The notes below the pieces were generated by a model that worked only from the letters and a program-made list of their open reading frames with translations, searched no databases and was not told where the DNA came from. A program made the position numbers and the translations under genes. From positions 9,196,432 to 9,260,431 of the forward strand of contig CAIIXF020000012.1 in the NCBI GenBank assembly GCA_903813345.2: DNA of 64,000 nucleotides, read 5' to 3'. Below, piece after piece: positions 37,648-62,657 of the stretch. This DNA is from Owenia fusiformis. Lineage: Eukaryota > Annelida > Polychaeta > Sabellida > Oweniidae. Position 1 is the stretch's first letter; each line of letters begins with the position of its first letter.

Positions 37648-40600
37648 CTAACGAGGCTTTGCTACTATCTTGAACTTTGGTGTCAATAAAAGGGTTGGTG
37701 AAGTTATGAATTTCCTCATATCAAACAGGACTGGATTTTTAGGGTCAGCATGCTCAAAGTGAAAGTTTTGTAAAAGCTGTGTAAAGAGGAGAAACATCCT
37801 GGTTTTTGCTAGAACTTCTCCCATACAGACACGTCTACCTGCTCCAAATGCCAGTAATCTGTAATAAAAATTCATCAGTCATTTGTCAAAATATTATTTC
37901 TGCTTTGAAAATCTAAATTGATCACATTTTATAATAATTATATAAAATCTCAATTTTCTAGGTCTCTAACCACGTTTAAATTGCAATATCTGTTACCATG
38001 GAAACTTTTTTGTGAACTACAGGATTTTTGTTGGATAACTTTAATGCAAGGAATAATGAGTTAAACTGAAAAAGAAAGTTTAGTAAAAGTTGCAATTCAT
38101 GCAAAGACTGTACTTAAAGATGCTTCAAGAATGTTCACATTTTTATGTCACCATCAAAAGTGACATATTGTTTAAGTCTCCATCTTTTTTGTGGATGGCG
38201 GAAATTTATACAGTGATCAATGGACATCTTGTAGACATTTACATAATCCAACTTACGCTTTCCTCTCTTCATGTGGAACTAGATTGCCGTCAGATTCAAG
38301 GAATCTTGTAGGATCAAAGGAATCTGGGTTGTGTTTGAAGTAACGCTTATCATGGTGCATGCCATATAAGTTCATCCAAACCTGTAATTCAATGTACTCT
38401 AGTTACGTTTTGTTAATGGGAATAAGAATTTTTTGTGGACAACAGATCACTTGTGAGGCTTAACTTATTTCCTGTACAACTTGTATTATGTCATCGCCAG
38501 AAGTTATGACATATTGTCTCGAACACTTTAATGGAAAGAGTTGGGTTGTAGGAGTCCAGTCTACATCATCATAGCTAGGTATGTTATAAATTGTTTATGT
38601 CACTATCGTGGCACATATGCCTTCAGTTCTCATCAATTTCCCTTTCAAGGTCAGGCCTTATATCACTGAGAACCTCTGGCATATATGCTTTGATAGTGCA
38701 CATGACATAACCTCTAAATATTATATCGTAGTTTTTCTTTCATGCATTTTAATTTCATTGGATTTCAGTAAAGATTTGAATATATTTTCCATGACTGCCA
38801 ATTTGCCAAATTTGACCAAGTGTCAAATTAAGAAAAAAGATGATGACCAACGTTATATTTATAAAAGGTATAGTTTAAGTAGATATGAATAAACGAACCT
38901 GTGTTCCCTTTGGGATATCACATCCAGCTATATGGGTATCACAAGTAGTTTTATGTGGCACGTTTGTTGCCACTATTGACATATATCGCAGTGTTTCAAG
39001 AATCGTTGCCTCCATATATGGCATCTTCTCACGATCTGATAGTTCCGGTAGCTGTTCTTTGCCAATCACACAATCAATTTCCTTGTGAAGGTTATTTTGG
39101 ATATCTGGATAGTTCGTCATTGCGAGTAGGAATCCGGATGTAGTTGTAAATGTTGTGAAAACTCCTGATAAGTAAGTAATCATCAAATAGATTATATGAT
39201 TTTAAAACAGGATTTTCATTCTTGATAATTAACAATAAACAATAAACTCTCTAATACACCTCTTTTAATTTATTTTAAAGGCACCATGATAAGTTTAAAA
39301 CTATGAAGTACTAAAGAGATTTCACACAGCATTTTTTCTCAATGTATTCAAAATCTGGTGAATACATTACAGATTTTAATTCACTGTTAAATCATATATC
39401 TGCTTAATATCTGCTTAATATCGGCTTTCAAGAGAGCCCATAAATGAACTATTCTAAAAACATTTTTAATCTGTGATCCTTCAAGCTCTCTGCAAATCTT
39501 AAATTTCCTCTATGGATTCAATAGCAGTTTGCCTACACAAAATGCTAATACATCAGAGTGATAAGTTTTTAAAACAAATTTTGTCCAAAAAATATTTGAA
39601 ATGATGTCACAATTGACAATGATGACAAATCCAAAGATTCTTAGAACAGCTTAGAGATATTATACCTGCGCTGAAAGTATCAGTCATGATTCCAAAAATA
39701 CCATCATCTGTTATTGTGCCTTCATCCTTAGCGATCAGTAACTCGTCTATAAGGGTCCTCTCGCCACTTTCCTATAACAGAAGTTGAAATGCCATTTATG
39801 AAGGAGATACATGAAAACAAGAAGACATTTGTCAGGATGGGAATTTTGTGAAAGGATCAAGTTTCATCAAAATTTGAAAGCATATAGTGTACATAATACT
39901 ATTTATTGTAAAATTACATATTTTACCTGTTTATGAAGTTTGAATCTTTCAATCCACTCTGTGAAATGTTTATCACGACATTCCATCAATTCAGTCATTT
40001 TCGGATAAACAGGGTTGCCAAAGAAGCGTGTCACTGGAAACATCTCTAATAGATAGAAAAACGGTCCATTTGTTGCTACTTCGAGGTCATCTAACCATCT
40101 TCTAGCAAATTCACCATCATTTTCTTCATAGGGCGTATTTTCACCAAGCAGCTTAAATAATTTTTCATTCATTAATACATGGATTCTTCTAATTTATGCT
40201 TTTATGCTTTTGTGTACAATAAGTTTATTTCCCATATGATCTTAAAATATTCATTTGCTTATTCCTAATATTACAAGTTTACACACTTTTTAAATGGAAA
40301 CAATGTCCCTTTACAAAATTGAAAAAAAAGAATTTTTAGAAAATTAGTAATGATTATATACACCATTCATTATGATTACTGTACGCATTCAATTAAATAT
40401 GTGTTCTGGGTGCTCATAAACTTTTTTTATATATTCTCATGAAAATACCAATTATTTCATCTAACCAGTCAATAGTATATTTTTATGTCACCACCGCAAG
40501 TGGCGATATATTGTTAAAGTCGCGAACTTTTTTGTGGATGGTGTTAGTGGTCCAAAAGGGTACTGCCATATTTTTGAAAAAAGTGAAATATAATTTCCCC

Positions 40601-41302
40601 TAGGGAATATCCTGTCTACTGGCATTTTCCTTCAGCTTGTAGTCTCAGGAGCATGTCATTTGACATCCCATAGAATAATATTTTATTATCACTTTTCATA
40701 TAGATTCCTGCTCAATAGACAAATAACATGTAGAAGCATCTAATTATACCTACCATACATACAATGATCCGACATAAGAGATTTTGAAGTTTCATGTGAG
40801 GCTGGAAAGGTTCACCATTTTCTTCTTTGAACTCCTTTACTGTCTGGCTTATGTTTTCATTGGATATGTTCACAATTCTACTGATTCCATCCCCATGCTG
40901 TTTTAGTCCACGTAATCCTAGTTTCTTGTAGGTTCTAAATGTTGGTGTAAAGTCATTAGTGGCTATGTTGCTATTAAACCATTCCTTGACTCCGTATGAT
41001 TTATCGAAAGGCCTTCCAGCAAAATCATTTGATCTTACCACCAAGGCATCGTAGATACTATCATAATCACTCAGAATGACAATTTCTGCACCAAGAATGC
41101 TTATTTTGAATGCATCGCCATATTCTTTTGCCCATTTCTGGACTTGCCAAACTGGGCCCCCACCCAAAATGAAGCTATGGATGTTTCCAATGATTGGTAA
41201 GCCTCTGGGTCCTGGAAGTTTTATGGTTTTCTTGACCATGTACTTGTAAATGTTATATGTTAAACACAGCACTGTGCTGGCTAAAAGGAACTCATAAAGC
41301 AT
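37648..41302 (-). CDS. CYP-A, CYP2-clan cytochrome P450 (intact, 493 aa)
   Basis: Microsomal P450 with six exons: 40754-41302, 39927-40151, 39666-39771, 38899-39164, 38257-38381 and 37648-37858. The start at 41302 gives an N-terminal membrane anchor (LLASTVLCLTYNIYKYMV), then the hinge KLPGPRGLPIIGN. ExxR is ETLRY, the PERF region is DPTRF, and the heme loop is FGAGRRVCMGE with the cysteine ligand. The length is normal for the family. Odd points: the I-helix reads AGVFTT where AGxETT or AGxDTT is expected, and helix C lacks its usual Trp (TFRTYKKLGLR). The substrate cannot be inferred. It is the rightward neighbour of BLTP2, convergent, with stop codon and last BLTP2 exon 228 bases apart. Confidence 0.93.
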
Positions 41303-41910
41303 CTTGTCTTTAAGCTTTTCTACGCGTATGGCAAATCACTTGTTCACTGTCTCTAAAGAAAAAGTTAAAAATTAAGTGCTATGTTGCAAGTTTTTCACAA
41401 CAAATCACATGTTTACCGTCTCTAAAGAAAAAGTTAACAATTTAAGTGCTTTGTTTTGCCAAGATGCTAGAGAATAAATTGCTAACAACATGAAATTTTG
41501 AAGTATTTAGACACATCGAGAGATTTGTTAAATGTACAAGTTCAAAAGTGGTTCTCGAATCTCACAGGAACTTGTATTGCCAAATAATATAAAAAGTGAG
41601 TCCAAATAGTATTTATTTGCTCTTTATTTTCTCAAAGAAATATGGTTAGGTAACAGGTTGCCACTGTTCTTCTAGTTGGGCTGCTGTAGATGTCAGCTGT
41701 TGTTGTAGATGTCAGCTATTGTTCATACAAGTTCCTGTGTTTAATCTCTGCAAATTGCATATATTTATTAGACATTGTCGTCCTATTTAAATTCTTTCTG
41801 TTGCCTTACATTGTCAGAAAAAAGGCCATGGATGAAAAAATTATTGCTACATTTAACAAATCTCATGCAGAAAACTTTAAACTTACATTACTTTGGTTTC
41901 CTTTTCAATC

Positions 41911-42535
41911 TCACTATACCTTTGTATATGTTTATAGTTTTGTACATAATTTATATGCAGAGTATTGATTTCATGTGCACTTAATTTAATTTTTTGACCT
42001 CATGCAGTTTGATCTTAGTGTAGAAGTGGCTTTCTAGTGTTATGACCATTGATAAGTAGTTCAGTTCAATAGTTTATACTTGAATAATGGGTTGAATAAA
42101 CAGGTATATTTACTTTGTGTACTTTTATTGCATTAGATCTTTAGGATCTATCCCTTATGGAAGGTGAATGGTTTTGTAGCAAGTTGATATCAGTTCTTCA
42201 AATAACCAAGGTCATACAAAAGGTTCCCTTGAACCATGATTATTGACAGATTTAGTGTATCAGCTTTAATCAGAGACACATACATGTAATAGCAAATATG
42301 TCTCTGTTTTATCTAACCATATATAACCTTATCATTCAGTTTAATAGTTGTATCATTTGAAATGTGTCCAGTAAAACAAATTACAAAAATGTATTATCTG
42401 TTCAATATTAAGAAAAGATTTTGCACTTTTTACTTTTGTAACATTGGCTTTTTGGAGATTCTACTTGACCTATAAATCTTAATGTTTTATAAAGAAAATC
42501 AGAATTTCAAAGTAAATGTAGATGGACAAATTTAA
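41911..42535. repeat. Duplicated CYP upstream flank, unit A
   Basis: Matches 54511-54968 in order, from TCACTATACCTTTGTATATG through ATAATGGGTTGAATAAACAG to AAATGTAGATGGACAAATTT. Unit A has about 180 extra bases (about 42117-42298). Weaker similarity continues to about 43000 against 55030-55260, and a diverged relative sits upstream of CYP-C (63612-63950). Confidence 0.8.
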
Positions 42536-43429
42536 ATTTTTTTTAGTTTATTGCAATCACTTTTAGATCAGTGGCACATAGTGAAATAATTCATTTAAAT
42601 AAATTATCTGTTTGATATAAGGAAAAAAAATTCACTTGTCATTATTGAACATGGGCCTTATGGGGAATATATCCAACCTGGAACACATTCTGAAGGGAAA
42701 TAAAATTTCAAAGTAGATAAACACATTTTTAGAGCCAAATTTTTAATTGAAGAATTTGGCTTTTGTTTAGTCTATCAAACCCTTGGGTGGTATATTGCAA
42801 TGATTTACCAGGTGAGTAAATGGGTGTCAATTTGGGTGGTGGATCAAGAGAAATTGTCTATATGTTTCATGACAAACCACCAAGTACGAGGGATTGATTA
42901 AAAATGTTTAGGAATGTACTTGGTATGAAATTAAGGAAAGCACAAGTCTGTACCATGTTCCCTTAGAATATGCTGATATAATTTACCAATTTACTTTGAT
43001 TGTGTAGAAATTAAAGAAAGATTCCCCCTGCCCCTTGAACTATAAGCTTTGTAATGTGTATGTGTACCTGTGAAATACTCCAACAAGGGTTATAGTAATG
43101 CTACTGGGTTAAGGTACACCTAATTAGAAGCATTTTTGAAATGTTGAAGTGGAAAAATGCTTTTGGTTTAAAATCATTGTTGAGTTCATACTGAGAAAAA
43201 TATAGTTGTGTACAGTGTAAGGGGACTGATTTTTTCATGTTATGGGACATCATATTTATAAAAGTAAATAATCAATTGACATCTGTTTTGTTGTGAAGGT
43301 CTAGGACTCCAAAATATAGCATATATAAGCATAACCACTGGTGATTCACTCGATTACCCTGGTTACTGAAACACTTCTTCCGGGTAACAAAATGTTAGAA
43401 CCTCAAATATGTACATATTTGCGAAAAAA

Positions 43430-43986
43430 ATAGTTCAGAAGACAACAGAATGGTCGAACTCCCATGCAGTGATATATCACTGCGGCGGACAGGTATCTCA
43501 CCTTAAGCATGGTAACTTTTTAATAAACAACTGACGTGATTGGTTCTAGTCCCATGCTCAGGTCGCGTGATTGTAAAATTTAGACAATTTCATTGGTTGA
43601 ATTGCGCGTATTAACTGATAAACAACACGTGTGGTAAACTATTATCAATACAACTTTTACTCAGAATTCCTTCCGCGATGATTTCTTCTCATATTTCAAT
43701 AATTTTGAAATATTTTGACAAAATAATGTTTTGGGGGACATTCATAAATACATATTTTATAAGTTGTGTGAAAATTGACCACATATATGATGAAAAGGGG
43801 AACTATTTTCCCCAAATTTTGGGGATTTTCTTCATCTGCCCGCCCCAGTGTCTATACTGAGACGCTGCATGGGAGTTTGCAGAATCGTTGATTATATGAG
43901 CTTACTTATGTTACGTAAATGGATCATCAAAAAAGGGTTATGATCTGCACTTCTCAAATCGACGATTCTGTTGTCTTCTGAACTAT
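43430..43986. mobile_element. Non-autonomous DNA element with long terminal inverted repeats
   Basis: The left end ATAGTTCAGAAGACAACAGA is matched in reverse complement by the right end at 43965-43986. A second inner match follows (CTCCCATGCAG at 43459-43469 and CTGCATGGGAG at 43865-43875). The 557-bp interior has no convincing coding frame. Target-site duplication is not clear. It lies between CYP-A and the reverse-transcriptase element. Confidence 0.75.
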
Positions 43987-44329
43987 GATACTGACATATC
44001 TATGTGATAAAAATGTCATGGGAATTCTGCCTACGACGTGTGAAATAAGGAAAAGAGAAAAATCACACCTTCTAGATTCAGACATTTTGTTAGTGAAACA
44101 AACCATTTTGGTAACTATTGTAATTGAGTGGATCACCAGTGCAGTGATAATATGCCCCAAACAAAACTTGTAAAATCAGAGTGCCATACAGAAGTTTTGA
44201 ATTTTGTATACATGTTCATTTTAATATATAATGAACCCTTATCAGACTTACACATATTACATATTGTGCTCAATATGTATTGGCTATATTTGAAGCTGGA
44301 TATAGTTGTACATTGTTTGATACTATATT

Positions 44330-46667
44330 ATACTACCTTTCAAGAAAAATTAGCCAAAGAATCATGGGCAGATACAATGAATAGCGATGATACAAATACT
44401 TCCTACAATTTTTTTGAAGAACGCCTGAAAGAAATTTATGATGAAAGTTTTCCAATCAAATTGGTATCTTTTAAGTCCTATAATAATAATGAAAAACCCT
44501 GGATTACTTCAGCTATTCTTGTATCGGTGAGACAAAAAAGTAAATTATATAAAAAATATCTTCGTACACCAACAAATCAAAATAAGGCAAATTATAAAGT
44601 TTATTCTAAAATGTTAAAAAATATCATAAGATCAGCCCATAAGCATTACTTTAACAGAAAATTTGAGGAAAATCAAGGAAACATTAAAGCTAATTGGGAA
44701 ATTATTAATGAAATTCTTCAAAGGAAAAATAAAAATCACAATATCCCAGACACATTCTTCCATAATAATACTGAAATAACAAATAAATTAGACATTGCTA
44801 ATCAGTTTAATTCTTTCTTTTCAAGGGTAGGTGAGACCCTGGCAGCAAAGATTCCTCCTTCAAACAAAAGTCCTTTAGACTACATGAATAATATTGGTAG
44901 ACAAGCTTCAACTTTATTTTTGAATCCGATCGACTCCAATGAATTAAACGTGGAATTATCAAAATTGAAAAACTCTGCGGCCGGTTTTGACGATTTCAAA
45001 CCTTCCATAATTAAGCATAGTGGTAAGGAATTCCAATTACCATTATTACATATTTTCAATTTATCTCTAACAAATGGTGTTTTTCCTGACAAATTAAAAA
45101 TTGCGAAGATAATACCAATTCATAAAAAGGAGGACAAACAGCTTTTTAATAATTATAGACCTATATCGATTTTACCAGTCTTCTCAAAATTACTTGAGAA
45201 ACTTATGCACCATCGACTGACCTCTTTTCTTGATAAAATAGAAATAATGTATCTTTATCAATTTGGCTTTCGGGAAAAAAAATCAACATTCATGGCAGTA
45301 CTTACATTTGTTGAAAAAATCAGAAATTCTATAGACAAAGGTGAATTCTCTATTGGTGTATTTCTTGACTTTTCTAAAGCTTTTGATACTATTGACCATA
45401 ATATCCTCTTTCAAAAACTCGATTTCTATGGGATACGAGGAGTAGCGCTGGAATGGGTAAAAAGTTACTTTTCTAATAGAATTCAAAAAACTTGTTATAT
45501 AGACACTATTTCAGATCCCGAGTCAATCACATGTGGAATTCCTCAGGGCTCTGTGCTAGGTCCCTTGTTTTTTATCATATACATCAATGACATCTACCTA
45601 TCTTCTCCTCGACTATTTTTTGTACTATTTGCAGATGATACGAATCTGTTAATACAAGGAAAAAATCTTAATGATATTACCAATGCTTTGAATGCTGAAT
45701 TGAAACTAATTGAGGAATGGATAGCCACAAATAAACTTTCGTTAAATGCAAAGAAAACTAAATATATCATATTTTCTTCTAGACAAAAGCAATATAATAA
45801 AAATGATATATCAGTCATTGTGAATAATAAAATACTTGAGCAAGTGACACATATAAACTTTTTAGGAATTATAATTGATCAGAATCTTACCTGGAAGAAT
45901 CACATTACAGCAGTAAACATGAAAATATCAAGAACCATTGGTATATTATACAAAGTTAAACATTTATTGAATGCCAAAAGCTTACTTAGTATATATTACT
46001 CTCTAATCTACTCATATCTCATTTATGGAAATATAATCTGGGGCGAAGCAGGCTGTACATTGCTTAATACTCTTCATCGTTCTCAGAAACAATTTGTAAG
46101 AATTGCAACAAATAGCGACTTTAGAGCTCACTCTTTACCTCTTTTTCATGATCTAAAAATCCTGAACATATTTCAGATAAATAAGCAACAAAGATATATA
46201 TTCATGTTTAAATGGATCAATGACAAGGATAATTACAAACAAATATTTCCAGATTTCTTCCAAATAGTTGAAAATAGACATAATTATGATACAAGAAACA
46301 AGAAAACTTTCGACAAACCAAAAATTCGTACAAACTATGGAAAATCAATGCTATCTTATTCTATACCTGATATTTGGAACCAATTACCCCCACATTTTAA
46401 ATCTATCAGAAGCATCATACTCATGAAAAAACAGACAAAAAAATATTTATTACAACTTTAATTCTATTTAGGGGCACTTTGATGGCACAAATTTTATATA
46501 TATATATATATTATTTAAGACATGCAATGGCAGATCCCCGCCACTCTAACATACTTTGTAAATTTACTCCATCTTGGGAATATACACAAACCCTTGTGTC
46601 ACCCACTCATTGTATATGTATATTGTATGTTTTTTGTGAAATAAACAAATTGAAAATTGAAAATTAT
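44330..46667 (+). mobile_element. 5'-truncated non-LTR retrotransposon (Jockey/CR1-group type)
   Basis: An open frame (44128-46461, 777 codons) contains a full reverse transcriptase. Order: KPWITSAILVSVRQKSKLYK linker, NYRPISILPVFSKLLEKL, a GFREKKST motif, FLDFSKAFDTIDH, CGIPQGSVLGPLFF, catalytic FADD at residues 501-504, SLNAKKTKYIIF, and the thumb-like NFLGIIIDQNLTWKNHI. No endonuclease domain precedes it. Codons before about 44330 look like host sequence fused by chance, so the copy is 5'-truncated. The 3' end is an AT-rich tail ending in a repeated ATTGAAA motif near 46667. The unbroken frame suggests recent insertion. Clade assignment (CR1, Daphne or Crack-like) is uncertain. Confidence 0.85.
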
Positions 46668-46671
46668 GAGG

Positions 46672-47604: not shown

Positions 47605-50600
47605 CTAACGAGGTTTCGCTACTATCTTAAATTTAGTTGCGACTAAAGTATCAGGCCCAGCTATGAATTTCCTCATATCAAACAGGACAGGATTTTCTGG
47701 GTCAGCTTGCTCGAAGTAAAAGTTTTGTAACAGCTGTGTAAAGAGGAGAAACATCCTGGTTTTTGCAAGAACTTCTCCCAAACAGACGCGTCTACCTGCT
47801 CCAAATGCCAGTACCCTGTAATAAATTCATTTCATTTTGTCACACATGGCAAAACAGTATTTCTGCATGAAAAAACAATTTGTGATCTCTAATGCCAACA
47901 TTTTTCATATCAATGTCCCAAAAAGATGTGTTAAAAGTTTCCACACATGGCAATGTCTGTAATCATGCCAAAATATTAGTGAACATAAAGACATTGTTAT
48001 AAGATTGTTCAGATTTTGAATTATGGGATACAAAACACTTCACACATTTGTCATTGAAAAATAATAGTCAGATTGAATTGAAATTTATACAGTGGTCAAT
48101 CTCTATTGTTTAGGTCAGAATCCAACTCACGCTTTTCTTTCTTTAGGTGGAACAAGATTGCCATTAGAGTCCAGGAATCTTGTAGGATTAAAGGAATCTG
48201 GGTTGTGTTTGAAGCAATGCTTATCATGGCCCATATCTAGATATCTACATAATTTAGATTATAATTTGACTTACGCTTTTCTTTCCTCATGTGGAACTAG
48301 ATGGCCATCAGAGTCAAGGAATCGTGAAGGAACAAAAGAATCTGGGTTGTGTTTGAAGTAACGTTTATCATGGTGCATGCCATATAAGTTCATCCAAACC
48401 TGTAAGACAATGTATTTAAGTTGCTTTTAGGCAACAGTTATTTAGACCTTTTTCTCTATTGAGTTTAGTTGAGTAATTGAGCACTATAGGACATAAACAG
48501 AATGCAACCAAGACTGTGAAATTCATCAGATAACATCCTGGTTGCTGAATGCTGAAGTGAGGAATTCTTGCTAGATTATTGGAGCTTCTGGATATATTTG
48601 CTCATGAGTGACTAACTTTTCAGTAACCAGATGTTACTATTAACATATGGGTAAAATATTTTGATTCAAATGAACCCCTTTGTTGGTGAAAATGTTGAAA
48701 TTTAAAATTCCCCATATGGAAGTTTATCCATTTTTTTTATAAAGTCTTTATTATCAGGCTTGAAAAGTGAATATGAATGATTATTCAGTCAACCCTGTGT
48801 TAAATATGAGAAATTCGGTTTTGTGATTCATTAAATGAAATTGACGCAATCATCTCTGTTTTTTGGTATTGATGTCCCCACCAGCAGTGATGACATATTG
48901 TTATAGTCTCCAACTTTTTGTGGATGGTTTTTGCCAGTTTGCATCTGTTTTTTTTAGTCGGTGTCTGTCACAAATGGCAAGTGGTAACATTTTGTCATGT
49001 TAATGCCTTATTTTTTTGTTTTTGTGTTTTTACAAACTTTACATCTGTACTGTAGTAACTTGGTTGTTACATTATCAACTGCCTGGAAACTTCTTATTAG
49101 TTCAATTAGAAAAGTATACATGATAAGTTTTGGCATGCTTTGTAAATAACATTACAGCCATTTTGCTTTTTAGAGTGGGATATTTATTATTGTGTATCAT
49201 GTTTTACCAAACTAAAAGATGCCAGAAGATCGCATTTAAATTTGGTTGGTAAATATTAGACTTAATCAGATTTATATTAAATCAGATTTTGGCAGGGTTT
49301 GGTGAATTTTTCATAAATGCCTAATTAAAGCAGATGACAAATTAAGCAAAATTAAATGAACAATACAATGTACTGTATATGAAAAATAATCAAAAGAGAC
49401 ATGAATGTATTTACCTGTGTATTCTTTGGGAGATCACAACCAGCTATATTGGTATCACAAGTAGTTTTATGGAAGATTGGTGTGATCATCGACATGTAAC
49501 GCAGTGTTTCAAGAATTGTTGCTTCCATATATGGCATCTTCTCACGATCTGATAGCTCTGGAAGCTGGTCTTTGCCAATCACATGATCAATTTCCTCATG
49601 GAGCTTACTTTGAATGTCAGGAAAATTCATCATTGCAAGTAGGAATCCGGATGTGGTTGTATGTGTTGTGAAAATTCCTAATAAATAATTAATAAACAAA
49701 TTGGTTATAGGGCTTTGACACTTCTAGTACTTTGATTGATTATTGTAGCTCTGCTAATACACATTACTTTGTTTGTTTTCAAGGTCCAATATAAAGTGTA
49801 AAAATATGAAATATGAATTTATCATTTGATATATACTTTTTTCCACAAATCATAAAAGTCAAAAAGAACTATTGATATTTCAGAATCTAAAGTTGAATTC
49901 TTAAAATTCTTCTTCCCAGCTTTTATTAAAACAAAAACCAAATACCCAATGTATATGTATATGATTAATATAAAATTGACACATCCATCCTCTGCAGATC
50001 TTAATATTTCCTTTTCTTTGAGCATTTTATTCAATGTGATCATATATCGTTCCATCTCTGCAGGTCTGAAATTTTCTCTTGAATCAAGCTGCTTCAGTTA
50101 TAGTATGGTCACACAAAATAGATCAGAGTTATTAGCTAATGAAAGCATAATCAAGAACTATTTAAATTGATAGTAAATTGGAAGATTCCTGTTAAAACCA
50201 AATGCAGGGTCTGCAGAGTGGAAAAATGCACTAAAGAACTAGTCTAACTATGAAAAGGATTTATACCTGCAATGAAAGTTTCAATCATGATTCCAAAAAT
50301 ACCATCATCTGTCATTTTGCCGTCCTCCTTAGCGGCCAATAACTCTTTAATAAGTGTCCTCTCACCACTTTCCTATAACACATTTCCAACCCATTAAAGG
50401 GCACCATGTTTTTTATCATGCAATGAAATACTTGGGAAATAAATGGAGTAAAAGATAAAGTTTTACCAAAATCTCAATGCACAAAGTTTACATATTTATT
50501 TATTGTACATATTATATTATCATAAGTATTTTACCTGTTTATAATGTTTGAACCTTTCAATCCACTCCGTAAAGGTTTTGTTACGGCATTTCATCATTTC

Positions 50601-53600
50601 ATTCATTGTCGAATAAACAGGGTTGCCAAAGTAACGTGTCCATGGGAACATCTGTATAAGATAGAAAAATGGCCCTCTTAAATTCACCTCGATGTCCTCT
50701 AACCATTTCCTAGCGAATTCTCCGTCATCCTCTTTATAGGGCGTATTTTCACCAAGCAGCTTAAAAAAATTCAAAGAATTTATTGTGGGACATGATCAGA
50801 CAACTTTGACATATTCTATCCCCAATCTATTATGTAATAATTAAACAATCAACACAAGTATATACCATATTCAAGCAGATATCAGACAAATTCATAAAAA
50901 AATTCTACTAAGTAAAGATGAGCTGAAAGTTGTTGTATATATGGCTTTTCAAGGTTCAATAGACGACTTTGAATGGACTTTCATGTATAGTTTTAAGTCC
51001 TTTCTGTTGAAGATACTCCTGAAAAACGTGAGAAAATTGAATTTGAGTCAGAATCGTCCTCTGACTCTGAGGATGAAAAAGCTTCCCCAAGATTTGATTC
51101 ATCATCTGATTCAATGTCACTTTCGGGTGGGATATTTACTATCCTATCCCATATTGGCCGCAGTCCTGGGTGTCTAGGCATTGATTGTCTATAATCTAGG
51201 CATCGTAATTAACTAAAGTTCCTTTGTTCCTAAACTTGTTTATTGATCGATTATAGACAGAACAATTAAGAAATGATTGAAAAAAAATTGACCGAACTAC
51301 TGACCATGCACAGAGTTTTAATTACACTGAACAAAAGATGCTCCCAGGGCAAGTTAGGGGGCGTGGCAGCTGACATTGGCATGAGATTAAAAAAGTCATA
51401 AAAACTGGTAAATCAGCGGAAAGGAGTTAAACCATGACATCAACTCTTAAGCCATAAAAAAATGTTGAACAGTTTTATTGTCTCTGAAGCCTAATGTGCC
51501 TTTAACCTCTTGAATCCCAGTCTCTAAAATCGGTTGAACCCAGATAATTTTTCATTTTTGCCACCTTTTGATATTTAACTACATTCATATACAACTTTAG
51601 ATGCTCAACTTTGTAAAATCAGACGGCGGAGATCATTTCTACAAATGCTAAAACAAGTTTTGTTTAAATTGGATGGAAATTGTTATAAGAGCAATTTTAG
51701 TGAAAAATTTTGTGACAGATTTGACCGTCACCCTTGGTTTCAAGGTAATTTCTGAGGTGACAAGATATCTCGTCACTCCAGGTAGTCAAGAGGTTAATGT
51801 ACATACCTAGGCCTAGCCTATCACCCTGTCTTTTTCCCCCCAATTCAGCTTATTCAATATCATAGATTTCTCCATGACTTCATAATCAGAAGTGAAGGCA
51901 CAAAGAAAAGTTCAGATATATTTGAAATTGTTAATGAAAAGTTCAACTAATGAACCATGGATTCAACATCAGATTAAAGCATTTTCTTGCAGAAAACTAG
52001 GAGAAGCAATGTATACATTGCTATATTGCAATCAAAGCAATGCTGTTATATATTTGTTTAGATAACATACAGTGAAACCTGTATATATTTGAACACCCAT
52101 TTAAGCCTAGCTAATCCCAATTTGAACACTCTTTTCAGTCCCATTTTTTCCTCCCATTGACTCCCATTTTAAAGAAACCTTGAAATGTGAACACCTCCTG
52201 ATTTGAACACTGAACAGTCATATTTGAACATTTAACATGTGTGATATGAACACTTTTCATAAGATATCACATGTTTCATACAAAATTGCTCAAATATTTT
52301 CACTGTTTTATTTTTATATCCAAAGATTTAGAAAAACATTGAACAGTTGAATGGTCTCACTCATAATGTCTTTCTAACATGTTTAATGGACTCATTTGAA
52401 TCATAATTATTTCAAATTATTGGAATACCGTGTGGTCAATATAGTACCATAAAGATTTATTGAGAATTTCTTCACATTTCATCAAAATGCAGAATATCAT
52501 GAATGCTTAAGCCTGGAAATGTGGAAACCTCCTTATCCAAACTCTTTTAGCTGGTCCCGATGGCGTTTGAATTTGACAAGTTTTACTGTCTTGTGTAGTA
52601 GTATATGAATGTATATATTATGAATGACTGCCTCATTTTGAAGAAATAATGAAAAATAGTTTCCCTTTGGAATATATTTCCATCTGCAAATTACAGGGTG
52701 GTCCAAAAAGTGAACCCCTGCAACAGGCTATATTTTCCTTAATAGCTTCATGAATGGGCTCAAATTATCACATGTTGTAGAGAAAGGTCTACAATTTTGG
52801 TTGATGCCATAATTTATTTGCAGTCTTAAATTTTGAAGAAATTACAAGAGTTTAACAAACATGCCTGAAAATAAGATATTGTGCAAAATTTTACCAATGT
52901 GATTCACGGAAATAGTTGAAACACATTGGATGATCTTTCAACAGCTTTCAGTTAGAGATACAAGCTTAATACCCTACCATATGACAAAAGGGACACTATT
53001 TAAGCAAAAAACATTTCACACGTTCATTGATCGTTTTGAAGCAGTTTTTACCATTCAACAGCTGAGGCGTATGTTACTTACACAAACAGTTAGAGGGGGG
53101 CTCTTGTGGAAGGAAGTTGCCCCCTGTGACTGGGTATCTGAGAAACCTTTCATCAATAAGCTTTAAAATATCAAAAGAAAATCCAATATTCAATGTTTTG
53201 AGTCATATTTCATTAGAATTAGTCCATGATTTATGAAGATATTGACATTCCAAGATCATATAGGGGTATAATCGCAATTTCACTGGAAAAAATTTTTGTC
53301 TATGGAAGCTTAGATTATTTCTTTGGATCACAATAACTCTGTAACTAACAAAGGTAGGATGCTAGTTTTAATCCATAATGTGCAGGATTTAAAATTGAAC
53401 ACAGTCAGAAAATATTAGTTCTTTAACACTGCAGCTTAAAAAATGTCAGGGGAAGGGTGTTGAAGGGTTGAAGAATCGCGGATATTGAAAATCACATTTT
53501 ATCCATTTTCAGTAATGTTTGGTCAGGGCTTATAATTTCTGCAAATTTCAAGACTAAGAAAAATGTGTGGTACCAACATAGATTTTAGACCTTTCTCTAC

Positions 53601-54310
53601 AACATGTGAAAATATGAAGGAATTCCTGCAAGTAATAAGGGAAATATGGCCCGTTGCAGAGGTTCACTTTTTTTGGACCACCCTGTATTTTGTCTTATTA
53701 TGATTCTTTTGATATAAAATCTTGTTCAACTGACAATTTAGATTCATTAAGTTATACCTACCACACATATAATGATCCGACAAAACAGATTTTGAAGTTT
53801 GTCATGAGGTTGGAAAGGTTGACCATTTTCTTCTTTAAACTCCTTTACTGTCTGGCTTATGTTTTCATTTGAGAGGTTCACAATTCTACCGATTCCATCC
53901 CCATGCTGTTTGAGTCCACGTGATCCTAGTTTCTTGTTTGCTTCAAACCTTTGAGTAAAATCCTGTATGAATATGCCATGAGAAAACAATTTTTTCGTTA
54001 CGTATGATTTTTCGAAAGGCCTTCCAGCAAAATCATTTGATCTTTCTACGAGTGCCTCATAGATACTATCATAATCACTCAGTATGACGATTTCTTCACC
54101 AAGAATGTTTATTTTGAATGTATCACCATATTTATTTGCCCATTTTTGAACTTGCCAAACTGGGCCTCCATCTTGAATAAAGCTATGGATGTTTCCAATG
54201 AATGGTAAACCTCTGGGTCCTGGAAGTTTTATGGTTTTCTTGACCATGTACTTGTAAATGTTATATGTTAAACACAGCACTGTGCTGGCTAGAAGTAACT
54301 CATAAAGCAT
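47605..54310 (-). CDS. CYP-B, CYP2-clan cytochrome P450 (intact, 492 aa)
   Basis: Six exons with the same junctions and phases as CYP-A: 53762-54310, 50535-50759, 50267-50372, 49415-49677, 48275-48399 and 47605-47815. One residue is missing in exon 4 (MITPIFHKTT). Anchor and hinge are nearly identical to CYP-A (KLPGPRGLPFIGN). The heme loop is FGAGRRVCLGE and ExxR is ETLRY. The I-helix is AGIFTT, again with Phe in the acid position. Helix C reads RFEANKKLGSRGL. Intron 1 is 3 kb and holds mariner-like, piggyBac-like and pogo-like insertions. A decayed second copy of exon 5 lies in intron 5. The upstream flank is a duplicate of the CYP-A upstream flank, so the gene arose by segmental duplication. 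Confidence 0.93.
48131..48234 (-). pseudogene. Decayed duplicate of CYP-B exon 5
   Basis: Reads MGHDKHCFKHNPDSFNPTRF, then LDSNGNLVPPKERK, closely matching exon 5 but lacking its first residues (VWMNLYGMH). A GT donor remains. The nearest AG upstream would splice out of frame, so it cannot replace exon 5. It sits between the working exon 5 (48275-48399) and exon 6. Adjacent bases resemble the corresponding intron of CYP-A. Confidence 0.8.
48871..49015 (+). repeat. Dispersed ACATATTGTTATAGT repeat, long copy in CYP-B intron 4
   Basis: Keeps all landmarks of the family from ATGTCCCCACCAGCAGTGAT through TTTTTGTGGATGG and GTCACAAATGGCAAGTGG to TTTTGTCATGTTAATGCC. Confidence 0.7.
50993..51181 (-). 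CDS. Small acidic open frame, possible piggyBac transposase N-terminus relic
   Basis: Encodes 62 residues with SDIESDDES and a second Ser/Asp/Glu-rich run (SSSESEDDSDSNS). Acidic N-termini of this kind precede the catalytic domain in piggyBac transposases, and a piggyBac-like MITE lies 325 bases away. No catalytic domain follows. It could equally be chance. Confidence 0.25.
   Translation of the reverse strand: MPRHPGLRPIWDRIVNIPPESDIESDDESNLGEAFSSSESEDDSDSNSIFSRFSGVSSTERT
51506..51793. mobile_element. piggyBac-like MITE with TTAA flanks
   Basis: Ends CCTCTTGA and TCAAGAGG form a terminal inverted repeat bounded on each side by TTAA (51502-51505 and 51794-51797), the hallmark target of piggyBac elements. 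The 288-bp interior has no open frame of note. Confidence 0.65.
52070..52588. mobile_element. pogo-like MITE, copy 3
   Basis: Starts TACAGTGAAACCTGTAT and ends GACAAGTTTTACTG. The interior repeats TTTGAACACT motifs, as in the copies at 17331-17888 and 25522-25695. Non-coding. Confidence 0.6.
52694..53685. mobile_element. Mariner-type non-autonomous element in CYP-B intron 1
   Basis: Ends are CAGGGTGGTCCAAAAA and TTTTTTGGACCACCCTG, flanked on both sides by TA, the target duplication of the Tc1/mariner superfamily. Similarity between the ends continues imperfectly inward for well over 100 bases (TAGAGAAAGGTCTA near 52780 and TAGACCTTTCTCTA near 53590). No transposase is recognisable in the 992 bases. 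Confidence 0.8.
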
Positions 54311-54510
54311 CTTGTCTGCAAACTTTCCAATAGCAAATCACTTGATCCATCTATAGAAAAACCATCAAAGCTTGTAAATTTAAAGAACTTTTAAGTGCTA
54401 TGTTTTGTCAATGTGTCAGACATTTAGTTGATGGTTGGTTATTGCTAAAGAAAACCAAACGTTAGCAGCAAATGCTTTATATTTAGAAAAATGTTAGCTT
54501 TAAACAAACC

Positions 54511-54968
54511 TCACTATACCTTTGTATATGTTTATAGTTTTGTACATAATTTATATGCAGAGTATTGATTTCATGTGCACTTAATTTAATTTTTTGATCT
54601 CATGCAGTTTGATCTTAGTGTCCAAGTGGCTTTCTAGTGTCACATGACCTTTGATAAGTAGTTCAGTTCAATATCTTATACTTGAATAATGGGTTGAATA
54701 AACAGGTATATTTACTTTGTGTAAATATGTCTCTGTTTTATCTAACCATACAGTATATAACCTTATCATTCAGTTTAATAGTTGTATCATTTGAAATGTG
54801 TTCAGTAAAACAAATTACAAAAGTGTGTTATCTCTTTAATATTAAGAAAAGATGTTGCACTTTTTACAATTTTGTAACATTGGCTTTATGGAGATTTTAC
54901 CTGACCTATAAATCTTAATGTTTTATAAAGAAAATCAGAATTTCAAAGTAAATGTAGATGGACAAATT
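54511..54968. repeat. Duplicated CYP upstream flank, unit B
   Basis: Partner of 41911-42535. It shows that the duplication that produced CYP-A and CYP-B included at least one kilobase of upstream DNA, so promoter elements were probably copied too. Confidence 0.8.
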
Positions 54969-55277
54969 TTAATACCACATGGTTTCTAAATATATCAGAC
55001 TTTTGGAATATTTAATTATGAAAATAAAGTATTTTATTAAACCCTTAGGTGCTATATTGCGATCAGTTGGGTATGGAACAGTTGAGTGATGGGCAGGCAT
55101 TCAGCCATCTTGTCTACTTCAATTAAGGGAGACCATGAAGTATGAGGGACTGGTTTGAAACTTTTTGGGGTATATCTTAGTATGAAAATTAGAAAAACAG
55201 AAGTTTGTACCTCATTCCCTCAGAATATGCTAGCATAATTTACCATTGTACTTTAAATGATATAACCTGAAGAAAAT

Positions 55278-56925
55278 ATGCTCAATAAATCATACTTGTA
55301 TGACCTTGAAATGAATGGTTTAGGTTACGCTGGCACTTGGTTCAGTAAAGTTATTGACATATTAAAACAATGTGATTTATTTTCTCATTGGTTGACTCAA
55401 AATGTTGAAGATGATTATATATTTATTCAAATGATCACAAAGAAATTAAAAAGTAATTATGCACTTCTATGGAAACAGAATATTCTTACTTTTCCTGTTC
55501 TTAGAACTTATATAAAATTAAAAATACTTTCACTAAAGAATCATATCTAAACATTCAAAATAAAAAGTATACACATGCATTAACGCTTCCTGGTCATCTC
55601 AACCCCAAGTCAACTCAACCCAGTAAAACTCAACCCCAAGTCAAGTCAACCCCAAGTCAAGTCAACCCCAGTAAAACTCAACCCCAAGTCAACTCAACCC
55701 TGTAAAACTCAACCCCAGTAAAACTCAACCCCTATATTTCTATATATTGATAAACTTTTAAGAAAGTCTATTTTATAAAAATAATTCTGTATTATTCAGT
55801 TTGTGTTTTTCATTCTTACACCACTACCTTTTTAGATTATAGTTAATAATGAGTTTATCTCCAAAATGTCAACATGGTACTTATAGGATTAAAATATGGG
55901 TCATTTTATTAATCTTGCTAATACATTTGTTTTGTTGTAATCCCTATGAAGTTGACACTCGTGATCATTTAGAAAACTGGAACATGACCATTGCTTTCCA
56001 AGGGCATAGCCAGCTTTCAGTCAGGAGGGATGCGATCGCCCAAAAAATCAGGTTTTCAGTCAGGGGGGCCGATTGTGGCATAAGCGAACCAAAAAAAGAT
56101 ATGTTTTGACAAAAAATGATGCAACTTCCTTCAAAATTGGGGGGAGGGTGTGTGCGCACCCCTCCTGGCTACACCTATATGCTTTCAGTCTATTAATAAG
56201 TAAATGTTAATGATTTTGTTAATGCATGTTCATATAAATAAAAAGTTATATTACATTGTTAATTATTTCTAAATTATCCTAAATTTGATTTCAAAAGAAT
56301 GTCTTACATTAAATAATAGTGACAACTTGATGAATTATCCTTGAGCTTAACAGTTTTTTTGGAATACTTTTACGACTTTCTATTCAAAGTATCATGCAAA
56401 ATGCTAGATTTTCAGAAATGAATGACTTATATTATTCATCATTAAAAAATAAATTAGACATTGCACAAATGAATAGGGTTGAGTTTTACCGGGGTTGAGT
56501 TTTACAGGGTTGAGTTGACTTGGGGTTGAGTTTTACTGGGGTTGAGTTGACTTGGGGTTGAATTGACTTGGGGTTGAGTTGGACTGGGTTGAGATGACTT
56601 GGGGTTGAGATGACTTGGGGATGAGTTCACATAAATAACAGATAGAAGTTGGACGGTACTCAAAACCAAAGCCAAAACCCACAAGTGAAAGGTTGTGTAG
56701 TGAATGTGGGGTAATTGAGGATGAGCTTCACTTTATCACAAGCTGTACAAAGAACTTAAAACACAGAGAGCTTTTGTTTGAAACTTTAAAATCTGATCTG
56801 AAACAGTGCAAAGATCCAGATAAACTGTTTGAAACTATCATGTCTAGTAAAAGCTCTCATGTTAACTTACATTGAGCCAAATTTGTATATCACTCTTTTA
56901 AAAATTTGGAAAATGATTAATATTG
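55278..56925 (+). mobile_element. Decayed non-LTR retrotransposon C-terminus, split by a foldback
   Basis: The left part encodes WKQNILTFPVLRTYIKLK, then after a one-base frameshift TKESYLNIQNKKYTHALT (to about 55588). The right part resumes as SSHK, stop, QIEVGRYSKPKPKPTSERLC, then SECGVIEDELHFITSC and, past a stop, AKFVYHSFKNLE. The C-x2-C ... H-x4-C pattern and order resemble the tail found after reverse transcriptase in several invertebrate non-LTR elements; that assignment is inference. It carries several stops and shifts, so it is dead. Confidence 0.6.
55592..56627. mobile_element. Foldback element with tandem-repeat arms
   Basis: The left arm (about 55592-55733) is built of repeated units CTCAACCCCAAGTCAA and CTCAACCCCAGTAAAA. 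The right arm (about 56473-56627) is the same set in reverse complement. About 740 bases separate the arms and include a nested copy of the GCATAGCCAG repeat (about 55998-56185). It interrupts the retrotransposon remnant between ALT and SSHK, which defines it as an insertion. Confidence 0.75.
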
Positions 56926-57518
56926 TAAACATTTTTAAAAACACATGATACACCATACTGATATTACATACACACATAAGTTACTGTTTTTGTTAATATT
57001 TAGAGATAACACCAACATGTTTTGGAGTTATATAGTTGTATGCCTTGTAAGATTTTACAATGATCCATGCAATAATTCATAATATATTAATATTATACTT
57101 TTGGTGTAAGGAATAATCAATGTTTTTTGCAATTTTAGTTCCAGTCTTGTGCTTTTCATGTTTAGAATCCAATCACTCAGAAAAAGTTACTTGCACTGTT
57201 TGTAGGAAGTGGAAAGCACCAATCTAATGGTCTTGATTTTAATTTCTGTCATATTTACCAATGTTTCACATCAAAATAATGATGTAACAAATATGTTAGC
57301 ATCCATTACTCCGTGGTATGATATGAGGTCTGGTTAGTTAAAACCCTTATTTTATGAGGCTTTACTTTTAAAGTATATAAACACAGATATAAACCAGATC
57401 TCACAATACTGAAATTAGGCTGGGTGGTATATGTAAATCTACAGCAAGGGACTGTATGTATGATCGGCTCACTTGTACAATATCTATATAGTACCCTTAT
57501 TTTACAAGGCTTTGCTAC

Positions 57519-57940
57519 TTAAGGAATAAATAATGATAGACCATTCAATATGGTGAAATTCAGCACGAGTTGGACAGAATGTTGTACAAAGCACGAACCG
57601 AAGGTGAGTGCATTTGTACTAACATTCTGTCCAACGAGTGCTGAATTTCACCATATTGAATGGCCTATCATTATTTATTCCGATTCAAACATAAAAATTA
57701 GTAAAAGCCGTGTCTGTGGAACGGGCATGAAGGAAGAATACGCATGCTGTCAAGAACAGCTATCCCCGGACAGAGCCCCAGATGTTTAGCTGAGATGTGA
57801 CGTCACTAGAAACAATGCAAATTGCAGATTGAATAGAGCATGGTCGTGCATCTATGGAGAATTAGAGAACGTTCTATATTGGCTATGCTGCATTCTGATT
57901 GGTTGAGAAATTCGAATAGAGCACGGTCATGTTTGAATAA
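57519..57940. mobile_element. Short hairpin-bearing DNA element (MITE-like)
   Basis: The empty-site comparison with the sister duplicate at 58455-58470 defines it as an insertion of about 420 bases. Its left part (57523-57682) is a near-perfect inverted repeat of about 60 bases per arm around a short loop. The right part has a TGACGTCA palindrome (57798-57805) and an ATTGGTTGAGAAATTCGAAT segment. No coding capacity. The family is unknown. Confidence 0.7.
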
Positions 57941-57966
57941 AGTATTAATAATGGCATGATCCACTT

Positions 57967-58177
57967 CTAGCGAGGCTTTGCTGCTATTGCAAATTTTGGT
58001 GCCAGTAAAGCATTTGGCGCAACTATAAATTCCCTCATATCAAACAGATCTGGATTCTCAGGGTCAGCTTGCTCAAAGTGAAAGTTTTGTAACAGCTGTG
58101 TAAAGAGGAGAAACATCCTGGTTTTTGCTAGAACTTCTCCCATACAGACGCGTCTTCCTGCTCCAAATGCCAGTACC
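57967..58177 (-). pseudogene. Duplicate of CYP-C exon 6 lacking a splice acceptor
   Basis: An almost identical copy of the CYP-C terminal exon, with VLAFGAGRRVCMGE through to the same stop codon (differences include TENPVLF versus PENPDLF). The AG acceptor present in the working exon (cag at 58693-58695) is replaced by ATTACT, so it probably cannot be spliced in. It belongs to a tandem duplication whose other part is the flank at 57245-57520 versus 58190-58465. Confidence 0.85.
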
Positions 58178-58849
58178 AGTAATCATATTTACCAATGTTT
58201 CACATTAAAATAATGATGTAACGAATATGTTAGCATCCATTAATCCGTGGTATGATATGAGGTCTGGTTAGTTAAAACCCTTATTTTATGAGGCTTTACT
58301 TTTAAAGTATATAAACACAGATATAAACCAGATCTCACAATACTGAAATTAGTCTGGGTGGTATATGTAAATCTACAGCAAGGGACTGTATGTATGATCA
58401 GCTCACTGGTATGATATCTATATAGTACCCTTATTTTACAAGGCTTTGCTACTAAAGTATTAATAACGGCATGATCCACTTCTAGCGAGGCTTTGCTGCT
58501 ATTGCAAATTTTGGTGCCAGTAAAGCATTTGGCGCAACTATAAATTCCCTCATATCAAACAGAACTGGATTCTCAGTGTCAGCTTGCTCAAAGTGAAAGT
58601 TTTGTAACAGCTGTGTAAAGAGGAGAAACATCCTGGTTTTTGCGAGAACTTCTCCCATACAGACGCGTCTTCCTGCTCCAAATGCCAGTACCCTGTAATA
58701 AAAACTCAACAATCAATATGGCAAAATAATATTTCTGCATAAAAACCCAGATTTTGCACATTTTTATGACATAGGCCATCTTACCATCAAGAAGTGTTAA
58801 AAGGCTACGGTCTCATTAGTCATTCATGATAACACTGCTGCTGTCATGC

Positions 58850-59113
58850 AAGGCCCGGGGGTTCACTCTAAATAATTTGGGTAGGCATGTGCAGCAGAGG
58901 CAATTTTGGCTAAGGGCATAAACCATGGAAGCTGGCCAATCTGAGAGGAAAAAATATCGAAAATTTGTCGAAGAGAGAGCCTTTTTAGAGGAAGTATACA
59001 TGGAAACTTCCAATCTTGAGAGGAAATAGACATGGAAAAAATGCTCAAAAAGGGAGTCTTTGGCGCGCCACATAGGTATAAAGAGGTATATTGGAGTGAA
59101 CCCCCCGGGATGC
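58850..59113. mobile_element. CpG-containing MITE with GGCCCGGGGGTTCACTC ends
   Basis: The left end GGCCCGGGGGTTCACTC (58852-58868) mirrors the right end GAGTGAACCCCCCGGG (59095-59110). ATGCAAGG flanks both ends on the outside (58848-58853 and 59111-59117). No coding frame. It lies in CYP-C intron 5. Confidence 0.65.
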
Positions 59114-59632
59114 AAGGATCCTTGTGCAAGTTAATGGCATGCTCATGGTTGTACCTTGGATAATTAATGCAATAGATAACATATGGTTAAAAGTTTTATA
59201 CATATGACAATATCTGTTACCATGGCAAATGTTTTAGTGAGCTTTTAGTATTTTTGTAGAATGGTTTCAATGCAAGGAATACTGAGCTTTAACTGAGAAG
59301 GTAAGCTGATAGAATGAAATACAAAGAATGTATTAAAAGATTTTACAATTAAGTACAAGAGTGTTCACATTTTGTTACCTTGAAATTCATGCATGTAAGA
59401 TCATGGTTCTGATATCTGTGGGGTTTGTTTTTTGTATGACTGGTATACACTTATAATTTCCTTTTTCTTGCTAAGTTCTATTACAACTTTTGGACGCTTC
59501 AATTTGGCACTTGTGCTTAGATATTTAGAAGATAGAGTGATCACATTCAGTTACTTTGGCAATGATCATCGGATCGAAAAATTTGGTACAGTTACATGTA
59601 TTACTTGAAAAGTCAATACTTGAATTCATACC

Positions 59633-59847
59633 AGGCCCGTAGCCAGGATTCGCCAAGGGGGGGTCCACTTTTTGGAAAATTCCAGGGGGGGGGTTCACTT
59701 TTGACAATTTGGGTCCAAAAAGGGCCAAAATCACTTAAAAAGTGCTCAGAATGGTGAAAAACTGCATGATTTTGAAAGAATTTTTGGCCAGGGGGGGGGG
59801 GGGGTTCGCCCGAACCATGCGAACCCCCCCCCTGGCTACGGGCCTGC
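59633..59847. mobile_element. GTAGCCAGG-type MITE between CYP-C exons 5 and 6
   Basis: The best-preserved copy: ends CAGGCCCGTAGCCAGG and CTGGCTACGGGCCTG, three long G or C runs, and the shared core AAAGTGCTCAGAATGGTGAA. Confidence 0.75.
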
Positions 59848-62657
59848 ATACAGTAACTAAAATACATCTATATAGCTGAGGCCATAATTCAACTTACATT
59901 TTTCTTTCCTCATGTGGAACTAGATGGCCGTCAGAGTCCAGGAATCTTGTAGGATCAAAAGAATCTGGGTTGTGTTTGAAGTAACGTTTATCATGGTGCA
60001 TGCCATATAAGTTCATCCAAACCTGAAACCCAATAGCTTTATTTACTGTACTGAAGATTACCGATCCAATCAACCTTTTTACCTGAATCCAATCCATTCG
60101 ATCCAATCCACTTTTCAATCCTTACCTTTTTTGACCCATATGTTGGTCCATAATTAAGTTTGCAACTTTTACTAATATCGAAATTATACAAATGTAGGTC
60201 CAACTTTTAGACAATTGTTGTTTTCTTGCATGCTCTTTCATTTCTTGGGATTTTAGTGAAGATTAGCAAACTTTGATGATTTTTTCATGAATGTCAATTT
60301 GCCAAAAATAGTGATTAATGTTATTACAGTATATATATATATTTATAAAAGATAATTCAAACAGATAATATACTAACCTGTGTTCCCTTTGGGATATCAC
60401 ATCCAGCTATATGGGTATCACAAGTAGTTTTATGTGGCACATTTGTTGGGACCATTGACATGTAACGAAGTGTTTCAAGAATAGTTGCTTCCATATATGG
60501 CATCTTCTCACAATCTGATAGTTCTGGTAGCTGTTCTTTACCAATCACCCGATCAATTTCCTTGTGAAGGTGATTTTGGATATCTGGATAGTTCATCATT
60601 GCAAGTAGGAATCCGCATGTAGTTGTGAATGTTGTGAACATTCCTGATAAGATATATTGATAAACGAATGTATAGGGATTTGGAACAGTGTTCAATGATA
60701 ATTGCAACAGCCCCATATAAAGTTTATAGAAAATAAAATACTATTTCCATGGCTTTCATTGTCTTAGATATTATCTGAGTACTGAGCCTCTCTGTTTAAT
60801 AATATCTGATACTTTACAAATTATGTACAAAGTGCAACAAAGATACATTAAAATTCCATTACACGGAATAAGTAATTAAATCCATCAAATTTGTATCTAT
60901 AAAAAGTAAGAAACTCATTTTTAAAAGTATGGTGTAACAAAATTTATATGTCCTCAAGCAGATTACTATTCAAATGATTGCTCATATAAATTAGCATGGA
61001 ATCATATTTTGCCAGTAAACTGTACCTTTCAAATATTTCAGTATACATGACTAGTATTGAATTCACTATTCATACTTAAACTAAGAAATGAATTCAAATG
61101 TTCTAATATATCTAAATATCTCCGCTCTTTTATATTACTAAAGTATTGAAAACCATCTGAGACCCATTCTTGGAGCACTTTTATTGTGATCATGCATGCC
61201 TTCATTTCTCTGTAGATCTTTAATCACCTCTCTGGAAAACCTTATTCATGGTATGAAGAAGATATTATACCTGCGCTGAAAGTATCAATCATGATTCCAA
61301 AAATGCCGTCATCTGTTATTGTGCCTGCCTCCTTTGTAGTTAATAACTCATCAGTGATGGTCCTCTCACCACCTTCCTATAGCATACATTGAAGTGAGTG
61401 TTATCATACAATGGAGATAGATGCATCATTGGAAGAAAAATCCAGATACTTGTATATAGACATACATGCATAACCACAGCCTTTTGTACAAGTTATGGAC
61501 CACTTGGCTAAATACCCTTTGTTATCCATGAACTCAAAAATACATTTTTTCCGAATGGGAAATTTATTGAGTAAAGATGAAATTTCACCAAAATCTAATA
61601 TTTATTGTTCATAAAATATCACAAGTATGTACCTGTTTGTAATGTTTGAACCTTTCAATCCACTCCCTGAACTGCTTATCACGGCATCTCATCAATTCAG
61701 TCAGTGTAGGAAAAACAGGGTTCCCAAAATAATGTGTCCATGGAAACATCTCCAACAGATAGAAAAATGGCCTATTCAACAAAACTTCGAGATTCTTTAA
61801 CCATTTCTTGCAAATTTGCCATCATTTTCTTCATAAGGTGTATTTTCACCTAGCAGCTGGAAGAAATTGACAAGACATATAAGTTTAATGATATCAGTCT
61901 CAATTTTTGTTAAAAATTCTAAAAAATCATGCAGAAATTCCCTTTGCATTTTTGAAGTATTCATTGCAATGTTGCAACCAAAGGAATGGCATAATGTTAT
62001 TCTCAAGAAAACATTAAGTTTTTAATTATACAAAAAAATGACATGCCACATTTTGAGGAAATAATGAAAAATAATTTCCTAAATATAGATCCCTCTAGTT
62101 ATACCTACCATACATATTATAATCCGACAAAGAAGGTTTTGAAGTTTGTCATGAGGTTGGAAAGGTTCACCATGTTCTTCTTTAAACTCCTTTACTGTCT
62201 GGCTAATGTTATCATTGGATATGTTCACAATTCTACTGATTCCATCCCCATGCTGTTTGAGTCCACGTAATCCTATTTTCTTGTATGTTTTAAACCTTTG
62301 TGTAAAATCCTGTGCAGATACGCTATGACAAAACCACTTATTGAATGCATATGATTTATCAAAAGGCCTTCCAGCAAAATCATTTGATCTCACCACCAAT
62401 GCCTCGTAAATACTATCATAATCACTCAGTATGACAATTTCTTCACCAAGAATGCTTATTTTGAACGCATCACCATATTCCTTTGCCCATTTTTGAACTT
62501 GCCATACTGGGCCTCCATTCAAAATGAAGCTGTGGATATTTCCTATGAATGGTAGCCCTTTGGGTCGTGGAAGGGCAATGCTTTTCTTGACCATGTACTT
62601 GTATATGTTATATGTTAAACACACCACTGTGCTGGCTATAAGTAACACATAAAGCAT

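Follow-up and report, generated by a model that had tools for sequence, protein, structure and literature searches.

Three tandem cytochrome P450 genes of Owenia fusiformis with phenylalanine at the I-helix acid position

The P450 cluster and its I-helix motif

The window analysed here, 64,000 nucleotides (nt) of the Owenia fusiformis genome (assembly GCA_903813345.2, contig CAIIXF020000012.1, positions 9,196,432 to 9,260,431 of the forward strand), is animal nuclear DNA with intron-containing genes and MED13-like frames, and it carries three cytochrome P450 genes, referred to as CYP-A, CYP-B and CYP-C, in which the acidic residue of the I-helix AGx[DE]TT motif is replaced by phenylalanine (Phe). 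The three genes are arranged head to tail in tandem, all on the minus strand and with a common six-exon layout, and the cluster extends over positions 37648-62657, which is wider than the 38899-61376 given in the first-pass annotation of this stretch. CYP-A (37648-41302; exons 1 to 6 at 41302-40754, 40151-39927, 39771-39666, 39164-38899, 38381-38257 and 37858-37648) is intact and encodes 493 amino acids in one open frame with GT/AG junctions. CYP-B (47605-54310; exons 1 to 6 at 54310-53762, 50759-50535, 50372-50267, 49677-49415, 48399-48275 and 47815-47605) is likewise intact and encodes 492 amino acids, and the intron phases in these two copies are 0, 0, 1, 0 and 2. CYP-C (58482-62657) has the same exon layout, with a lesion in exon 2 that is described below. 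Exon by exon, the identity between copies is 79-94%.

The scan against Pfam, for which CYP-A was the sole copy used, gave PF00067 with an E value of 6.2e-95 over residues 30-476. The top matches among solved structures were CYP17A1 (E 7.2e-57), CYP2R1 (2.1e-54) and CYP1A2 (3.6e-52), and the first 52 among the best 60 of 302 structure matches were CYP17, CYP2, CYP1 or CYP21, the families that make up animal clan 2. Judged by these best matches, the genes are placed in the P450 superfamily and, within it, in clan 2 (CYP1/2/17-like). No relatives of exon 4 were found in the viral and prokaryote sequence collections (with a three-sequence alignment or, for phages, exon 4 of CYP-A as the query), a result that says nothing on animals. 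CYP17A1, CYP2R1, CYP2B and CYP1A2 resemble the genes of the window in overall sequence, in the alignment of the I helix, in the heme loop and in the ExxR motif, but they differ in having Glu or Asp opposite the Phe of the window genes, as well as Trp and Arg in helix C.

In all three copies the Phe is encoded by TTC (DTFSAGVFTT in CYP-A, codon at 39157-39159; ETFIAGIFTT in CYP-B, 49670-49672; DTFSAGMFTT in CYP-C, 60636-60638; minus strand, positions derived by hand from the exon bounds), and the catalytic threonine (Thr) and the Thr that follows it are kept in every copy, so that the acid of the acid-alcohol pair is absent and the alcohol is present. In phmmer alignments the Phe stands opposite Glu of CYP17A1 (AGVETT; 6b82, 4r1z), CYP2B and CYP2R1, and opposite Asp of CYP1A2. 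The motif was ungapped in five solved-structure alignments (four proteins, CYP2R1 twice); in a separate alignment run, two CYP2R1 alignments were gapped at the motif. The first-pass annotation had argued from an unchanged distance between the motif and the next conserved proline that the Phe is not a misalignment, and this was borne out as net spacing in the five alignments, an insertion and a deletion in CYP2B cancelling each other. A shift of the acid along the helix was also considered and rejected, as the Asp or Glu of DTFSAG and ETFIAG has its counterpart in the Asp of DIFGAG (CYP17 and CYP1A2).

The I-helix motif straddles an exon junction, which could suggest that a missed exon or a different junction restores the acid. 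However, exon 3 ends in GCA G/gtata and exon 4 starts with ag/GA NNN TTC ACA ACA in all three copies, Phe being the second whole codon of exon 4, preceded by a residue that differs among them (Val, Ile and Met). Phe and the next Thr are thus contiguous exon 4 codons, with no AG acceptor between them in any copy, and exon 4 has a single open frame in each copy, with 4 to 9 stops in the other two frames. No AGx[DE]T-like codon run was found in intron 3 of any of the three copies. A scan of the first 45 nt of exon 4 and the last 40 nt of exon 3 for extra splice dinucleotides gave an AG at the exon 4 start in CYP-A only, which by hand would drop one residue and keep the Phe, and, in CYP-A and CYP-B, a GT that lies 36 nt upstream of the exon 3 end and leaves the Phe-Thr pair unaffected. 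Another junction that restores the acid, which had been named as an observation that would overturn the Phe reading, is excluded as far as the genomic sequence allows; an annotation artefact has a negligible probability, and the Phe substitution is confirmed as real.

Helix C reads TFRTYKKLG, RFEANKKLG and RFKTYKKIG in CYP-A, CYP-B and CYP-C, respectively. The first of these pairs with TWKFHRKMV of CYP17A1, with Trp changed to Phe and Arg to lysine (Lys), and Phe122 (CYP-A, 40937-40939; CYP-B, 53945-53947; CYP-C, 62292-62294; minus strand, placed by alignment) and Lys126-Lys127 are invariant across the three copies. The earlier description of a helix C without its Trp was therefore right as to the absence of Trp but too strongly worded, since an aromatic residue takes the place of an aromatic one and a basic residue that of a basic one. 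The heme cysteine and ExxR were found intact, as had been stated: the heme loop (FGAGRRVCMG in CYP-A and CYP-C, FGAGRRVCLG in CYP-B) fits FxxGxRxCxG, ExxR is ETLR in all three copies, and the meander motif is DPTRF in CYP-A and CYP-C and VPSRF in CYP-B. The structures predicted for exons 1 and 4 taken singly (mean predicted local distance difference test scores of 32.4 and 55.9) were too poor for a fold search.

Decay, selection and neighbouring features

The three genes had been described without mention of a defect, but exon 2 of CYP-C (61856-61633) has 224 nt, versus 225 nt in CYP-A and CYP-B, owing to a 1-bp deletion, and an in-frame TAA follows at 61799-61797, after 19 exon 2 codons. The other five exons of CYP-C are open. 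This copy looks broken, either as a young pseudogene or through an assembly error, because the ratio of nonsynonymous to synonymous substitution (dN/dS, Nei-Gojobori) between CYP-A and CYP-C is still low, at 0.203; the ratio is 0.293 between CYP-A and CYP-B over all exons and 0.277 between CYP-B and CYP-C, exon 2 being omitted from both pairs with CYP-C. By these ratios, purifying selection acts on the proteins or did so until recently.

Additional exon copies are present in the cluster. CYP-C is followed downstream by an additional, open exon 6 (57967-58177, minus strand), which is identical to exon 6 of CYP-C at 208 of 211 nt, and falls within a 240-nt direct repeat at 98%. Downstream of exon 5 of CYP-B, tblastn gave a partial and diverged exon 5 copy (48137-48231, minus strand, bounds set by hand; 74 of 89 aligned nt). 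Duplication and decay are both under way at this locus. CYP-A and CYP-C may also have undergone partial gene conversion, since their exon 4 is closer (92%) than exons 1, 2, 3 and 6 (80-86%), with exon 5 equally close at 92%, in which case the Phe codons of these two copies would not be fully independent.

Several other features were found in the window. Between CYP-A and CYP-B, a 777-amino-acid open frame on the plus strand (44128-46461) contains a reverse transcriptase domain (PF00078, E 7.8e-34) and probably represents a retroelement without long terminal repeats. At the left end of the window, two minus-strand open frames matched solved Mediator subunit 13 chains (138-971, E 1.1e-37; 9698-9991, E 1e-5) and are probably exons of one MED13 gene. 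Intron 5 of CYP-C contains a short element (59632-59846) resembling a miniature inverted-repeat transposable element; its 16-nt ends, CAGGCCCGTAGCCAGG, are perfect inverted copies, and tracts in its interior are rich in C. Between CYP-B and CYP-C, two related tandem arrays with 16/31/47-bp periods (55593-55732 and 56474-56627) lie about 0.74 kb apart in opposite orientation (CTCAACCCCA and GGGTTGAG), and a minisatellite at 17446-17869 repeats a 33-bp unit about 13 times and gives long repetitive open reading frames in several frames on both strands. The Rfam scan gave no matches, the tRNA scan gave no genes, and none of ten neighbouring open frames matched Pfam.

Acid-less motifs in other P450s

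In the published motif tables for three cnidarian CYPomes, the motif is given for 83 of 85 genes and the acid is present in 80 of the 83, two of these with one residue inserted; the remaining three have His, Thr and Thr (PMC8110760). The corresponding table for Capitella teleta, a less conserved subset picked by its authors, shows the six-letter motif in 27 of 29 rows, with the acid in 18 and His (2), Ala (4), Ser (2) or Ile (1) in the other nine (PMC4229089). Phe is at this position in none of the 110 invertebrate motifs of these tables, which were counted by eye. Four of the nine acid-less Capitella rows are CYP3052A1-A4 (AGTATT, AGTATT, GGTATT and AGTSTT), the members with a motif shown out of the 24 genes of CYP3052, the largest clan-2 family of that species, and support from expressed sequence tags is stated for all fully annotated Capitella P450 genes (PMC4229089). 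Like the genes of the window, CYP3052A belongs to a clan-2 multi-gene expansion in which the acid is absent and Thr-Thr, ExxR and the heme loop are kept in canonical form; compared by the motif alone, CYP3052A has Ala or Ser whereas the window genes have Phe.

Among bacteria, 20 of 39 other P450 match places in one actinobacterial genome were fetched, some of them fragments of one gene, and 18 of the 20 have the acid, one Lys and one Leu; the script had given 14 acids, and three rows with insertions and one shifted row, which the script had read as Phe, proved on inspection by eye to have the acid. The Phe motif, written as a GC-rich codon pattern, matched 70 stretches in prokaryote genome contigs, and a heme-motif filter identified P450s in at least three of these (L013, L033 and L052), all from Actinomadura and each with AGNFTT and ExxR; this number is a lower bound, as the pattern spans some codons only and matches near locus ends may be missed. 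When one of the AGNFTT P450s was searched against 150 genomes of its family at E 1e-90, it matched itself only, and a simple motif scan of the stretches containing the three showed no ferredoxin-like gene. The Actinomadura P450s share with the window genes the Phe at the acid position and the Thr-Thr pair, but they are bacterial and the window genes are animal, and the likeness is one of motif. Full-text searches for AGVFTT, AGIFTT, AGMFTT, AGTFTT, AGLFTT and AGSFTT returned no papers, although this result carries little weight, since papers often place sequences in figures or supplements, and a literature search on acid-less monooxygenases gave nothing direct. As acid-less motifs are found in cnidarian, Capitella and bacterial P450s, loss of the acid is, on these motif comparisons, recurrent among P450s; Phe is rare and, because the Actinomadura and window P450s are so distant, very probably has more than one origin.

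Proton supply in the absence of the acid

We consider it probable that the genes form a tandemly duplicated, invertebrate-type clan-2 subfamily of microsomal P450s, in which the acid would have been lost before the duplications and then fixed as Phe, the simplest reading of its presence in all three copies. The hydrophobic N-terminus points to a membrane anchor and a location in the endoplasmic reticulum, and the proteins would still depend on P450 reductase and activate O2. Protons may be supplied by way of the two kept threonines, water molecules in the active site and possibly a group of the substrate, with turnover that is perhaps slower or less coupled and a proton supply that is leakier. 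This reading is supported by the matches to clan-2 monooxygenases, by the conservation of Thr-Thr, ETLR, the meander and the heme loop, by the low dN/dS, and by the occurrence of acid-less motifs in Capitella clan-2 genes backed by expressed sequence tags. A reductase-dependent P450 with rerouted proton supply is plausible because Thr-Thr is kept and other P450s do without the acid. The motif of CYP51, AGQHTS, has no acid (PMC4229089, Table 2), and human CYP51A1 is active once reconstituted with NADPH-P450 reductase (PMC12260017). P450 OleT, which has no acid-alcohol pair, can be driven by a reductase once the two are fused, and calculations assign its proton supply to His85 or Arg245 together with the carboxylate of the substrate (PMC10988616). 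Furthermore, a second Thr after the catalytic one adds to the hydrogen-bond network, for example in BM3 and CYP199A4 (PMC9366932). Some points weigh on the other side. CYP51 is like the window genes in having no acid and keeping the Thr, but it belongs to a different clan and its His is able to carry a proton, whereas Phe cannot donate one; the Asp-to-Asn change D309N in human aromatase causes the loss of 95-98% of activity (PMC9366932); and CYP3052, as an analogy, would indicate tolerance of acid loss and not a mechanism.

Alternatively, the proteins could be P450s that are not monooxygenases, acting as hydroperoxide or endoperoxide isomerases or dehydratases, or as peroxygenases, for which proton delivery for O2 activation is not needed. 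The absence of the acid from all three copies and the change of both Trp and Arg in helix C would fit such enzymes, and P450 peroxygenases without the acid-alcohol pair are described (PMC10988616). However, the alcohol half and a second Thr are kept, the heme loop is canonical, and the closest solved relatives are monooxygenases. The first-pass annotation had offered CYP5, CYP8 and CYP74 as analogues, which are similar to the window genes (as are CYP5A1 and CYP8A1 in particular) in departing from the I-helix consensus. The fit is poor: CYP5 and CYP8 lose the catalytic Thr, which is kept in all three window copies, and CYP74 has an altered heme loop, whereas the heme loop, ExxR and Thr-Thr are canonical here. 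CYP74 also needs neither O2 nor electron donors and has an I-helix groove unlike that of monooxygenases (PMC10813956), and the window genes keep AGxxTT; neither a changed groove, an altered heme loop nor a replaced Thr was found. Isomerase or peroxide chemistry is possible, but we found no positive evidence for it, and we regard a non-monooxygenase P450 as improbable. Another explanation is a P450 with impaired catalysis that persists for a role in binding, heme handling or regulation, or that belongs to a subfamily dying out, with CYP-C already dead. The frameshift in CYP-C, the stray exon copies and the joint alteration of two heme-pocket regions are consistent with this, yet CYP-A and CYP-B are fully open, dN/dS is 0.20-0.29 in all three pairs, and the heme cysteine, ExxR and Thr-Thr are intact, which makes impairment rather unlikely.

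Of the unusual chemistry proposed for this subfamily, an altered proton relay is therefore a fair inference, because the Phe is real and common to three copies of genes under purifying selection; the isomerase and peroxide parts of that proposal are unsupported, and reduced monooxygenase activity stays a possibility. It is conceivable, though improbable, that Phe has become fixed throughout a clan-2 subfamily of invertebrates and, with the Trp-to-Phe and Arg-to-Lys changes of helix C, marks a lineage whose reactive intermediate is formed from lipid hydroperoxides, or by a proton route in which the substrate assists, in place of the acid-alcohol relay.

As a reductase-dependent P450 with an altered relay, the Phe-bearing enzyme would most likely be an ordinary oxygen-using P450 in an unusual form, and not a new kind of enzyme. 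The I-helix acid serves as a signature of P450 monooxygenases, and the motif alone is insufficient to infer non-monooxygenase chemistry. Natural genes that are maintained by selection and encode a hydrophobic residue at this position offer a ready test of the need for the acid in an enzyme that retains both threonines.

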